Origin: Limosilactobacillus reuteri
GTDB lineage: Bacteria; Bacillota; Bacilli; Lactobacillales; Lactobacillaceae
Direction: 5' to 3'
Length of the DNA stretch: 64,000 bases
Assembly (NCBI RefSeq): GCF_020784725.1
Contig: NZ_JAJGTZ010000023.1
Coordinates: forward strand, 62,001-126,000
The position numbers and the translations under genes were made by a program. Numbering within the stretch: position 1 is the stretch's first letter; every line of letters begins with the position of its first letter. The notes beneath the pieces were generated by a model that had not been told where the DNA came from, did not search any database, and saw only the letters and a program-made list of their open reading frames with translations. Positions 4,887-51,749 of the stretch are shown piece after piece.

Positions 4887-4926
4887 GAAAAAAGAGATTG
4901 GATGAATTTCCAGTCTCTTTTTTATT
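4887..4926. terminator. Bidirectional terminator
   Basis: Stem AAAAAAGAGA...TCTCTTTTTT around a short loop, with T-runs in both directions. It lies between the plus-strand ldhD and the minus-strand ECF S-component gene. Confidence 0.75.
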
Positions 4927-4931
4927 TAGTA

Positions 4932-5465
4932 TTATTGCAAGTAGCGTTTAAACGCAACCGTTAAGGGTTTATACAAGATAAAATAACAACCAAAATTACC
5001 AACCGCATGATAGAAATCAAATAGCAAGCCACTTAGCCAGTACGCCATAAAAGCAGCCCAGCCCCCATATATCGACATTCCTAAACTAACTATGAACCCG
5101 TATTCAAAACCTAAAAACGTCGCTAAAATTAACTGAAGAGTGAAATGCTTCTTTAAGGGTGTTACTTTAGCTAATCCTGCTACTGTAACAACACAAACTA
5201 TATATGCTAAAATTTGTGGGATTGTCCATATGCCAAATCCTAGTAAGAGATTTGATAGAACCATTATCATTACTGCTAACGATATTCCAAAACCAATTCC
5301 CAACATTAAAGTTGCAAGCATAATTAGATCAGTAACTGGCTGTACATTAGGAATTGGAATAATCTTGAATACACGTAAAACAGTTCCTAAAGCAGCAAGC
5401 ATGGCAATCAATGTCATCCTTTTAACTTGATCATGCTTACTAACAACCTGCGATCGCGCTTTCAT
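4932..5465 (-). CDS. ECF transporter S component, candidate corrinoid or lower-ligand transporter
   Basis: Small (177 residues), very hydrophobic protein with about six membrane helices and the AMLAA (AxxxA) motif in the first helix, typical of S components that dock on the shared EcfA/A'/T module. It starts one base after the stop of the DUF4430-like gene upstream, so the pair is one unit. The pair lies just downstream of cobT, at the end of the cobalamin operon. Known cobalamin-related S components (CbrT of L. delbrueckii; predicted CblT/CblS) and this context suggest uptake of cobalamin, cobinamide or a lower-ligand base. The substrate is inference; no EcfA/T genes lie in the window. Confidence 0.75.
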   Translation of the reverse strand: MKARSQVVSKHDQVKRMTLIAMLAALGTVLRVFKIIPIPNVQPVTDLIMLATLMLGIGFGISLAVMIMVLSNLLLGFGIWTIPQILAYIVCVVTVAGLAKVTPLKKHFTLQLILATFLGFEYGFIVSLGMSIYGGWAAFMAYWLSGLLFDFYHAVGNFGCYFILYKPLTVAFKRYLQ

Positions 5466-5466
5466 A

Positions 5467-5847
5467 TTATTCCGCCTTATCTAGGGTAAATTGTACCTTA
5501 TCATTATTCTTAAGAGTTTGCTGATTAGCTAACTTATTTACTTTTTTACCATTTACTGTGTATGTCCAATAAATACTCTTCTTTTGGTTTTCTTTTCTAC
5601 CATCAATTGAAGTAATAAAACCCTTTGCTTCTTCAACTTTCCAATTCTTTTTTAGTCCAGTAATTACTTTATCGTTCTTCTTTAAAGTAGTCTTCCTTGT
5701 GGCAACAGTCTTCTTACCTTGTTTAAGAGTATAGGTAACTTTTATTGTATTATTACTACCCTTTTGATCTTTATTTGTATATCCAGTTAGCATAAAAAAT
5801 GCCAAAAATATAACTAAGATACTGCTAAAAATTTTAACCTTCTTCAT
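5467..5847 (-). CDS. Exported DUF4430-like (transcobalamin-type) protein, altered lipobox
   Basis: A 126-residue protein with a Lys-rich start and hydrophobic signal segment (about residues 6-22), then an extracellular domain. The domain has the pattern of DUF4430, the fold related to the C-terminal domain of transcobalamin/intrinsic factor: ITSIDG, then WTYTVNG near residue 95, then LKNNDKVQFTL. The expected lipobox Cys is absent: LTGY (TAT codon) replaces the usual LTGC, so it is probably released or held by an uncleaved signal anchor. It is coupled to the ECF S component and probably presents its ligand, by inference a corrinoid. Shine-Dalgarno AGGAGG is well placed. Confidence 0.7.
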   Translation of the reverse strand: MKKVKIFSSILVIFLAFFMLTGYTNKDQKGSNNTIKVTYTLKQGKKTVATRKTTLKKNDKVITGLKKNWKVEEAKGFITSIDGRKENQKKSIYWTYTVNGKKVNKLANQQTLKNNDKVQFTLDKAE

Positions 5848-6135: not shown

Positions 6136-7188
6136 CTATGGAATAAAATTGAAGTCCATTTCCTGCAATGTATTCATATTTGTGAGCATCACCTTGACTC
6201 CATCAAGCCATGGCAAAAGCATCATGGCCCCGCTCCCTTCACCAACACACATATTAATATCAATATAAGGGTCTAGACCGAGAGCATCAAGAACGATTTG
6301 GGACCCTTGTTCTTTTGATTTATGGGTAGGGATCATATAATTTACTGCTCCTGGCTTGATTGAATTTGCTAATAATGCTGCTGAATAGGATAAGAATCCA
6401 TCAAGAAGAACAGGTTTATTCATTGCACCAGCTGAAAGCATTGCACCAGCCATTGCACCCAGTTCAAGTGCACCGACCTCACTTAATACTATAAGCGGAT
6501 CTGGTGATTTATTTTCTTTTAGTTTTGCTCGTTCAAGGCTTCTATTAACAACATCAATCTTATGTTTTAAACGTTCATCAGAAATATTAGATCCACGTCC
6601 AACAACTTCTGCTGCTGACTTATTCAAAAGTGCGGCAACTATTGCGGAGGCGGCTGTAGTATTCCCCATTCCTAGTTCACCTGTTGCAATTACTTGGTTT
6701 CCCTCTTCAAACGCTTTTATTCCCATGTCGAAACCATATTGTAAAGATTCTCTTGCTTCTGCTATCGACATTGCTGGTTTATGGAGCATATCTTCGGTTT
6801 CATGACGAATTTTATGAACTTTAACCAACGGAAAATTTAAATCTGTTTTAATTCCGATGTCATAAACCTGTAAGTCACACTTAAAAGCTTTCGCTAGCGC
6901 TGCAACCGTAGTATGTCCCTTCATCATATTAACTGCCTGAATTGCTGTAATTTTTTGCGGACTGGCTGAAACACCTTCATGGACAACGCCATTATCTGCC
7001 GCAAAAACTAAGCATTTTCGTGGTGTAAGATCAAAATCAGTTGTTCGATAAATTCCTGCTACATGATCAGCAAGCTCTTCTAAGCGTCCAAGTCCTTTTA
7101 CGGGTTTAGCAAGATTATCTATTTTCTGCTGCATTGCGCTCATTTTCTTTTCATCAAGCGGTCGCAGTTTTATTTCATCAAATTTCAT
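6136..7188 (-). CDS. cobT: CobT, nicotinate-nucleotide:base phosphoribosyltransferase
   Basis: Transfers phosphoribose from nicotinate mononucleotide to the lower-ligand base, giving the alpha-riboside phosphate used in nucleotide-loop assembly. About 350 residues, the usual length; contains LGRLEELA, the glycine-rich GELGMGNTTAASA segment and a C-terminal catalytic-type Glu in CVGEGSGAM. The start is the ATG at 7188, with GAGAGGG about nine bases upstream, rather than the ATG at 7206 inside hemD. It is the last gene of the cobalamin operon. No bluB is present, so the natural base is probably adenine (pseudocobalamin), as known for L. reuteri. Confidence 0.93.
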   Translation of the reverse strand: MKFDEIKLRPLDEKKMSAMQQKIDNLAKPVKGLGRLEELADHVAGIYRTTDFDLTPRKCLVFAADNGVVHEGVSASPQKITAIQAVNMMKGHTTVAALAKAFKCDLQVYDIGIKTDLNFPLVKVHKIRHETEDMLHKPAMSIAEARESLQYGFDMGIKAFEEGNQVIATGELGMGNTTAASAIVAALLNKSAAEVVGRGSNISDERLKHKIDVVNRSLERAKLKENKSPDPLIVLSEVGALELGAMAGAMLSAGAMNKPVLLDGFLSYSAALLANSIKPGAVNYMIPTHKSKEQGSQIVLDALGLDPYIDINMCVGEGSGAMMLLPWLDGVKVMLTNMNTLQEMDFNFIP

Positions 7189-7189
7189 T

Positions 7190-7900
7190 TTAATTTTCCC
7201 TCTCATAATGCCATAAGTTATCTAAAACATTTTCCAGTACGCACTTTCCCCTATCTGGATATATAACTTTTAAGCCTTTTTCTTGGATATAATTACCGGT
7301 ATTTTTTCCTAAAACATAGTAATTAATATTGCGATACTCATTACTATCCACTCTAGTCATAATTTCAAACATACGATTAAAGTTCGAAATACTAGTAACT
7401 AATGCACTTGTAATATGTTGTTTCATAAAAATTTTAAGTGCTTTTCCTTCATGCTGTTTATCCCATGTATTTTTATAAACTACAATTTTTCGTCCATAAA
7501 AATCGGAATAGTATTTCTCTGCTTTATCTCCAATAAGCCAACAAACATCCGTAACATGTTTATTCTTTAATTCCTCTAATAATGATTTCCGGTTCTCACT
7601 TGGAGCAATTTGGATAGGATTAGTAACTTTCTTCTCCAAACTTTGCTTAATTTTTTTACTAAGAACAAAAATAGTTGCTGTTGAATTTAGTGTTTTTAAC
7701 TGATCGCAAAATACCCGCGCGCCAAAAAGACTGGTAATTGCCAGTACCTTACTATTTTGTAAAATTTTTTTACTTTTTGGCGTTAAATCAACCGCTTTCA
7801 AAATTCGGAATGGAAAATAAATCACGTCATCCTTTTGTTCTAACTTTATTCGCCAATATACCGGAACTTTATTTTTAGGATAAGTAATCAAAATTGCCAT
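7190..7900 (-). CDS. hemD: Uroporphyrinogen-III synthase (stand-alone)
   Basis: Cyclises hydroxymethylbilane with ring-D inversion to uroporphyrinogen III, the last common tetrapyrrole precursor. A divergent 236-residue protein, recognised from ITSLFGARVF near residue 55 and the C-terminal YVLGKNTGNYI...YPDRG pattern of the HemD fold. It lies between cobC and cobT, away from hemACBL. A second HemD-like domain is fused to CobA at 20504-21898, so the operon encodes two candidates for this step. Shine-Dalgarno AGGAG is well spaced; the coding sequence looks more AT-rich than its neighbours. Confidence 0.82.
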   Translation of the reverse strand: MAILITYPKNKVPVYWRIKLEQKDDVIYFPFRILKAVDLTPKSKKILQNSKVLAITSLFGARVFCDQLKTLNSTATIFVLSKKIKQSLEKKVTNPIQIAPSENRKSLLEELKNKHVTDVCWLIGDKAEKYYSDFYGRKIVVYKNTWDKQHEGKALKIFMKQHITSALVTSISNFNRMFEIMTRVDSNEYRNINYYVLGKNTGNYIQEKGLKVIYPDRGKCVLENVLDNLWHYEREN

Positions 7901-50669: not shown

Positions 50670-51749
50670 ATGTACGAATATTCTTCAAAATTCTTAAATG
50701 ACATTCAAAAAGTAACAAAAACATTTCAAGAAATAACTAATAATAATATAATTTTCACAAGCATTACCGGAGCAATTGTTGATTGTAATACCCTTCTTTT
50801 TGATCCAAATATTTCACTTGAACATTTACGAAAACTTGATTTTAAAAATTACTTTGTTTTCCCATTAGTTATAAGCTCATCTTTAAGTGGTTTTTTCGTT
50901 CTTGATGAATCACACATAGAATCAGACGTTATTGATTTATGTAGCAAATATATTGAAATTTCTTGCAAAAAGTTTATTGACAGTTCTAATGACCGTATAA
51001 CTGTTCTTGCTCCATTTGAGGCTCCTAAGCTAAGTTCACTAATCAAAGTTCTTAATGGGATACTGAATATTTCTGAAGACGGTTCAATAGCTAACGTCGC
51101 TAATTCTCCTATTCTCAACAACAGAAATGATGGTGCTCTAAGTGATATTGAGAAAAATATAACCATGGCGCTTAAATATATTAATTCTAATTTAGAAAAA
51201 TCACTTACTTTAGAAAATGTTTCTCAGAGGATTTATCTTTCACCATCATACTTAAGTCGAATCTTTAAAAATTACTTTAATGACAATTTCATTAACTATA
51301 TAAATCTACAAAAGATTGCACTTGCTCAAGAAAAATTAATTTTTTCAAATACACCGATTAATAAATTGGCTCATCAAGTTGGTTTCTCACAGACAAGTTA
51401 CTTTACTAAAATTTTCAAGCAAAAAGTAGGAATGACACCATCAAAGTATCGAAAATATAATTCTGCAATAAAGAAAATCTATACTATTCCAAGAGATTTA
51501 CAATGGCGCTCAAATAAATCCGTTTACGAAATTTCAAAAGATTTTTTCAGTAAAAATGATATTTCCTTTAAGGCCCGTGATTTAAATGGATATCCATATA
51601 TTTATTCAATAAATGATCTGAATGATATTAGTAATAAAGCAGGCTGGGTTTACACAGTAGATTGTTCTCAACCTATTATTCCAGCTAGTGAAATTAATGT
51701 ATTTGATCGTTCAGTAATTCAATGGATTTATACTGAAAAAATTATTTAA
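50670..51749 (+). CDS. pocR: PocR, AraC-family activator with a C-terminal DUF4430-like domain
   Basis: Likely activator of pdu and cob genes, divergent from pduA. Residues 1 to about 120 form a sensory region. Residues about 165-268 are the double helix-turn-helix AraC domain (LTLENVSQRIYLSPSYLSRIF; VGFSQTSYFTKIFKQKVGMTPSKYRK). Residues about 280-357 form an extension not usual for AraC proteins, whose pattern YPYIYSINDL, GWVYTV and DRSVIQWIYT matches DUF4430/transcobalamin-type domains. By inference this may sense corrinoid. The gene looks more AT-rich than the pdu operon. Confidence 0.88.
   Translation: MYEYSSKFLNDIQKVTKTFQEITNNNIIFTSITGAIVDCNTLLFDPNISLEHLRKLDFKNYFVFPLVISSSLSGFFVLDESHIESDVIDLCSKYIEISCKKFIDSSNDRITVLAPFEAPKLSSLIKVLNGILNISEDGSIANVANSPILNNRNDGALSDIEKNITMALKYINSNLEKSLTLENVSQRIYLSPSYLSRIFKNYFNDNFINYINLQKIALAQEKLIFSNTPINKLAHQVGFSQTSYFTKIFKQKVGMTPSKYRKYNSAIKKIYTIPRDLQWRSNKSVYEISKDFFSKNDISFKARDLNGYPYIYSINDLNDISNKAGWVYTVDCSQPIIPASEINVFDRSVIQWIYTEKII

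Follow-up and report, generated by a model that had tools for sequence, protein, structure and literature searches.

Tyrosine in place of the lipobox cysteine in a DUF4430 protein encoded beside a CbrT-like S component in the Limosilactobacillus reuteri group

Introduction

Bacterial lipoproteins are recognised by a cysteine that follows the hydrophobic stretch of the signal peptide. In a 64,000-nucleotide stretch of Limosilactobacillus reuteri DNA (hereafter the window), the signal sequence of a small DUF4430 protein ends in LTGY, and relatives carry at this point a lipobox such as LTGC. The site raises the question of whether the tyrosine belongs to one strain or one assembly, or is an established feature of a group of species, and of how a protein encoded beside a membrane S component is retained there, if it is retained, when no lipid can be attached.

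Results

The DUF4430 gene, its LTGY site and the surrounding features are as follows.

4888 to 4923, plus strand: terminator-like hairpin between the S component gene and the neighbouring gene
4932 to 5465, minus strand: CbrT-like ECF S component (PF12822, E 8.8e-21; 6fnp_A, E 1.7e-61)
5467 to 5847, minus strand: open reading frame of the DUF4430 protein (PF14478), 126 residues, with an ATG start and AGGAGG upstream
5779 to 5790, minus strand: LTGY, residues 20 to 23, with the tyrosine codon at 5779 to 5781
6136 to 7206, minus strand: open reading frame upstream of the DUF4430 gene, which we take to be a CobT-like gene at the end of a cob/hem cluster

The protein begins with MKKVKIFSSILVIFLAFFMLTGYTNKDQKG and consists of a signal sequence lacking the lipobox cysteine, a short linker and the DUF4430 domain, which matched PF14478 over residues 59–123 (E 1.9e-20; 73.5 bits vs. 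a curated cut-off of 23.8). The original prediction had placed a tyrosine where a lipobox cysteine is expected, within 5770–5790, and this was confirmed: Tyr23 is encoded by TAT, one base away from TGT. The whole protein contains no cysteine, and lipidation at residue 23 is therefore impossible.

The DUF4430 gene was detected in 10 of 50 Limosilactobacillus genomes (one genome per species). At the aligned cysteine position, seven of the ten proteins carry tyrosine (LTGY, the window included) and three carry isoleucine (LNGI); one LNGI member, L010, has a cysteine six residues before this position in a lipobox-like LLAC. The six other LTGY proteins, in which the residue after the hydrophobic stretch is likewise tyrosine instead of cysteine, are 74–94% identical to the window protein. 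LTGY in the named records of L. balticus, L. rudii and L. caccae represents three of the same genomes, as judged by coordinates, and the motif also occurs in a metagenome-assembled genome labelled Candidatus Lactobacillus pullistercoris. LTGY is also carried by genome G034; over 28,486 aligned bases in two stretches, this genome shows 94 and 97% identity with the window. Among the seven genomes the tyrosine codon is TAT in six and TAC in one. The earlier suggestion that anchoring was lost in this strain does not hold, since LTGY is present in all seven nearest gene-bearing Limosilactobacillus genomes, and its occurrence there with differing tyrosine codons rules out a strain mutation. From these comparisons, the change from cysteine to tyrosine looks like an old inherited one that is common to the L. 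reuteri group. No description of the tyrosine variant was found in the accessible text of the literature searched, which mostly addressed topics other than lipobox loss.

Pairwise comparison of the four LTGY codons among the seven genomes gave 50 synonymous and no nonsynonymous differences (pN 0, pS 0.70), with pN values of 0.17 for the signal sequence and 0.22 for the linker. The corresponding pN/pS ratios were 0.26 for the signal sequence, 0.56 for the linker and 0.10 for the DUF4430 domain; all these figures are descriptive only, because the genome pairs are not independent. Moreover, all four LTGY columns, which were specified beforehand, were invariant (column test, P = 0.005). Judged by codon variation, LTGY is under constraint in the seven genomes, and the motif is unlikely to stem from the neutral decay of a lipobox that had lost its function.

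The genome of the window encodes both LspA (PF01252, E 3.1e-41) and Lgt (PF01790, E 9.9e-81). As a control, a lipoprotein with a PPIC domain, presumably PrsA-like, was followed across the genus; it matched in 49 of 50 Limosilactobacillus genomes, and its cysteine was kept in all 30 copies read at the best 30 loci, all seven LTGY genomes included. A general loss of lipoprotein processing was thereby ruled out, and the loss is specific to the DUF4430 protein.

The state of the site was then compared across the family in a main set of 81 rows, obtained from 95 extracted proteins (86 different) after removal of 14, comprising duplicate and near-duplicate entries, a partial one and a tandem copy. 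Fragments L041 and L096 were kept outside this set, as were 32 DUF4430 matches with E above 1e-8, most of them located in longer open reading frames. Signal classes were assigned by pattern and by eye, with "SPI" as the remainder class (L025, L067 and L073 are doubtful), L071 and L074 placed in the lipobox class by hand and L010 placed by hand among those with none. The set comprised 31 lipobox members (32 of 81 if L010 is a lipoprotein), 37 other Cys-less members, most with an Ala-X-Ala-like end, 7 LTGY, 3 LNGI and 3 with a plain hydrophobic helix. Unusually, members of the reuteri group lack both the cysteine and an Ala-X-Ala site. The same kind of loss is seen in L069 (Lactobacillus), where LTGN is followed by an Ala-containing end.

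A wider search matched 219 of 395 genomes, and the 15 best-scoring new loci from outside the family, from three other families, were read; all 15 homologues have a lipobox. The prediction's view of DUF4430 proteins as lipoproteins thus most likely holds for the ancestor, cysteine being, by this distribution, most likely the ancestral state at the position. A complete lack of the cysteine among homologues, which the prediction had considered as a sign that the family is not one of lipoproteins, is found at the aligned position in all ten gene-bearing Limosilactobacillus and not in the family. For the tree of the S component (46 rows), the minimum is 6 switches between presence and absence of a lipobox, 2 of them forced by starred branches, and the tree of the short DUF4430 domain (81 rows) requires 8, again with 2 forced; such counts by themselves do not separate gain from loss. 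The ten Limosilactobacillus rows are united in the S component tree but not in the domain tree, which bears on whether LTGY and LNGI go back to a single loss.

Several atypical copies were observed. In L030, from a genome of genus g37, two DUF4430 genes stand in tandem and the second has an in-frame stop, and an 8.9-kb plasmid of Companilactobacillus futsaii holds two DUF4430 copies in one frame (L044:3001-3669). On the plasmid of L. reuteri YLR001 (L041), nrdJ and a short S component frame flank an N-terminally truncated DUF4430 gene, and an IS30 transposase gene is close by; the open frame of 99 residues begins within the linker and has 62% identity with the window protein. Rows of genus g4 (e.g., L020, L027 and L036) form a large Cys-less subgroup with Ala-X-Ala-like ends; their flanks of 1.5–2 kb contained no CbrT-like or nrdJ match, and a different role is therefore possible.

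The DUF4430 protein was predicted to lie beside a membrane S component, and the PF12822 gene indeed adjoins it, beginning 1 base past the DUF4430 stop codon. By sequence, its sole solved relative up to E 1 is 6fnp_A, aligned over residues 11–175. An S component match lies directly downstream on the same strand in all ten Limosilactobacillus loci (L001–L010), and a CbrT-like S component follows the DUF4430 gene in 18 of 28 lipobox genome rows. In relatives, within surveyed flanks of about 1.5 to 2 kb, the pair often occurs with nrdJ and a gene for cob(I)yrinic acid a,c-diamide adenosyltransferase. The gene that we take to be CobT-like immediately precedes the DUF4430 gene in the window and in L002, L003/L011, L005 and L006/L013, and was not found in the examined stretches of L004, L012, L007 and L014. 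In addition, the genome of the window has four matches to the CbiQ/EcfT-type family PF02361. On the other side, the hairpin separates the S component gene from a gene that we assume to be D-LDH-like; the evidence for it is weak, because 1 terminator-like hairpin was found vs. 0.6 expected in shuffles. A search of the window (1–64000) for Rfam families gave none at or above its gathering score, and the B12 cluster thus has no recognised cobalamin riboswitch.

The function of the DUF4430 protein was approached by structure comparison and by annotation. The AlphaFold2 model has a mean pLDDT of 53.9, and with this low-confidence query Foldseek placed 3u7z, haptocorrin, intrinsic factor and transcobalamin at ranks 1–11, the first ten at E 2e-4 to 2e-3. 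For the animal B12 carriers, the query TM-score was 0.42 to 0.51 and the rmsd about 7 to 13 Å. Against PDB sequences, a profile search returned only 3u7z below E 0.01, and haptocorrin, intrinsic factor and transcobalamin gave no sequence-profile match up to E 1. A homologue from Enterococcus durans bears the annotation "cobalamin ECF transporter" in its record. In a proteomics study of L. rhamnosus, the available text gives K8Q211 the name "Additional lipoprotein component of putative cobalamin ECF transporter" and describes LGG_02295, a DUF4430 protein whose gene neighbours rtpR (PMC9963975). A DUF4430 domain is also reported, in the text available, in the C-terminal region of TCN proteins (PMC4350170). 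We infer, partly in line with annotations by others, that the DUF4430 protein is a corrinoid-capturing partner of CbrT.

How this partner is held in the LTGY group was assessed from its N-terminus. The hydrophobic stretch extends straight into LTGY, and the linker contains no alanine and hence no Ala-X-Ala, whereas most other Cys-less members differ in this; a signal peptidase I site would thus lie at best after LTG, with hardly any c-region. On these features, an uncleaved helix with Tyr23 at the membrane interface is the probable arrangement, while cleavage and release is doubtful. If signal peptidase I cuts after LTG or nearby, the protein would be freed or loosely held at the anionic wall by its strongly basic charge. 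Glycine at –1 and leucine at –3 are tolerable for signal peptidase I, and LTG, which by this general rule would be a weak but tolerable site, is invariant; such conservation would also be expected of a cleavage site and speaks against the helix, as does the overlap in N-terminal hydrophobicity between LTGY proteins and lipobox members. Many other Cys-less members, moreover, have the Ala-X-Ala-like ends typical of secretion. Release is weakened by the hydrophobic stretch that reaches the putative site, leaving nearly no c-region and no alanine nearby. As for the wall, the net charge of the DUF4430 domain (+14 to +16) is compatible with loose retention, but it is not special to the LTGY group: the median is +15 there and +17 among lipobox members, and wall retention by charge was rejected as a replacement specific to LTGY. 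Across the whole set, the charge of Cys-less members is slightly more positive (Mann–Whitney P = 0.008, kinship ignored).

Relaxation of the uptake role in a group that makes its own corrinoid, with the cysteine lost by drift, was also considered. CbiD was found in 10 of 50 Limosilactobacillus genomes and 27 of 397 family genomes and, by signal class, in 7 of 7 LTGY and 0 of 28 lipobox rows, which favours this explanation; of the remaining classes, LNGI has it in 1 of 3 rows, the other Cys-less rows in 3 of 37 and the helix rows in none of 3. Row by row, lipobox vs. the rest was associated with CbiD among the 44 S-adjacent rows (P = 0.0027). The number of independent changes behind this association is nevertheless small, with 2 or 3 supported pairs and no significance in the sign test, so a tie between lipobox loss and de novo corrinoid synthesis is unsupported by independent pairs and is a lead only. 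Most other Cys-less rows come from genomes without CbiD, the CbrT-like protein is conserved as well as or better than its DUF4430 partner, and both LTGY, at pN 0, and the DUF4430 domain are constrained; loss by drift is accordingly unlikely. An error in the sequencing or assembly of the window's genome, although one base would suffice to give tyrosine for cysteine, is refuted in practice by the tyrosine of six other genomes, once through TAC.

DUF4430 domains were also observed elsewhere. A PocR-like AraC regulator in the pdu/cbi/cob cluster of the window (50670–51749, plus strand) has a C-terminal DUF4430 domain at residues 283–355 (51516–51734), scoring 25.8 bits against the cut-off of 23.8. 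Homologues were matched in 36 of 397 genomes; at the 30 loci read, the last 115 residues matched DUF4430 at E up to 0.01 in 29. A direct profile comparison of the regulator tail with exported DUF4430 proteins gave a probability of 65, so the evidence for kinship comes more from the Pfam model than from this comparison. The structure model of the regulator has a mean pLDDT of 31.5, too low to be of use. The domain suggests a sensor of a cobamide or a related compound. The available main text of a 2011 paper on the regulator mentions a helix-turn-helix domain and does not contain the terms "C-terminal" or "DUF" (PMC3162504).

Other Lactobacillaceae encode a stalked, N-terminally membrane-anchored DUF4430 protein together with an exported protein of 348–349 residues and an S component, at the following loci.

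L195:2265-7324: stalked DUF4430 locus; S component by Pfam; ATPase and T-like genes as well; pocR adjacent
L198:20-2279: stalked DUF4430 locus; pocR one gene away
L200:3644-6961: stalked DUF4430 locus; S component by Pfam; ATPase gene (by eye); no pocR in the stretch

The exported protein may resemble the transcobalamin alpha domain. Pfam and PDB sequence searches with the 349-residue protein returned nothing convincing and no solved relative; its relatives in seven plasmid records are annotated as hypothetical or as fucose-binding lectin II.

Discussion

Overall, we lean slightly towards the view that, in the L. reuteri group, an uncleaved N-terminal helix and not a lipid keeps the corrinoid-capturing partner of CbrT, a former lipoprotein, in place. 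The protein would, most likely, have been a lipoprotein ancestrally; the replacement of its lipobox cysteine by tyrosine would date to the ancestor of the L. reuteri group and have been kept since. The protein would be exported without a lipid and, most likely, held in the membrane by the uncleaved helix, some 17 residues long. This helix would have Tyr23 at the outer interface and would place the DUF4430 domain beside CbrT, and the domain may bind a corrinoid and then hand it to CbrT.

The window S component is a clear homologue of CbrT from L. delbrueckii, whose vitamin B12 transporter, ECF-CbrT (6FNP), is reported to transport cobalamin and cobinamide (PMC5997447). Transport was described there with the S component and the ECF module; a DUF4430 partner is not named in the text available, and the words "lipoprotein" and "operon" are absent from its main text (PMC5997447). 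The name given to K8Q211 matches the role proposed for the window protein, although its DUF4430 content is not stated in the available text (PMC9963975); as it lacks the lipobox cysteine, the window protein is not the lipoprotein that this name implies. The best Foldseek match, 3u7z (RUMGNA_00854 of Ruminococcus gnavus, a putative metal binding protein), also shows a weak sequence match to the window protein over the C-terminal half. The likeness to transcobalamin, intrinsic factor and haptocorrin would concern their beta domain; the DUF4430 domain of the window protein stands alone, without an alpha domain.

A broader scenario seems improbable to us: cobamide-making lactobacilli would have swapped the ancestral lipid tether for a selected Tyr-ended helix or for release, giving a looser or mobile bacterial counterpart of transcobalamin that recaptures cobamides leaked by the cells themselves, and DUF4430 would have become a cytoplasmic sensor of cobamides within the PocR-like regulator.

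For ECF importers of this class, binding is known to be the task of the S component itself. The present findings link a bacterial ECF importer to a fold that may resemble that of animal B12 carriers and outline a capture step that can be tested. They suggest that lipoprotein is the wrong name for the DUF4430 protein in L. reuteri, and that the partner of a B12 importer can switch its membrane tether in one species group while remaining under constraint.
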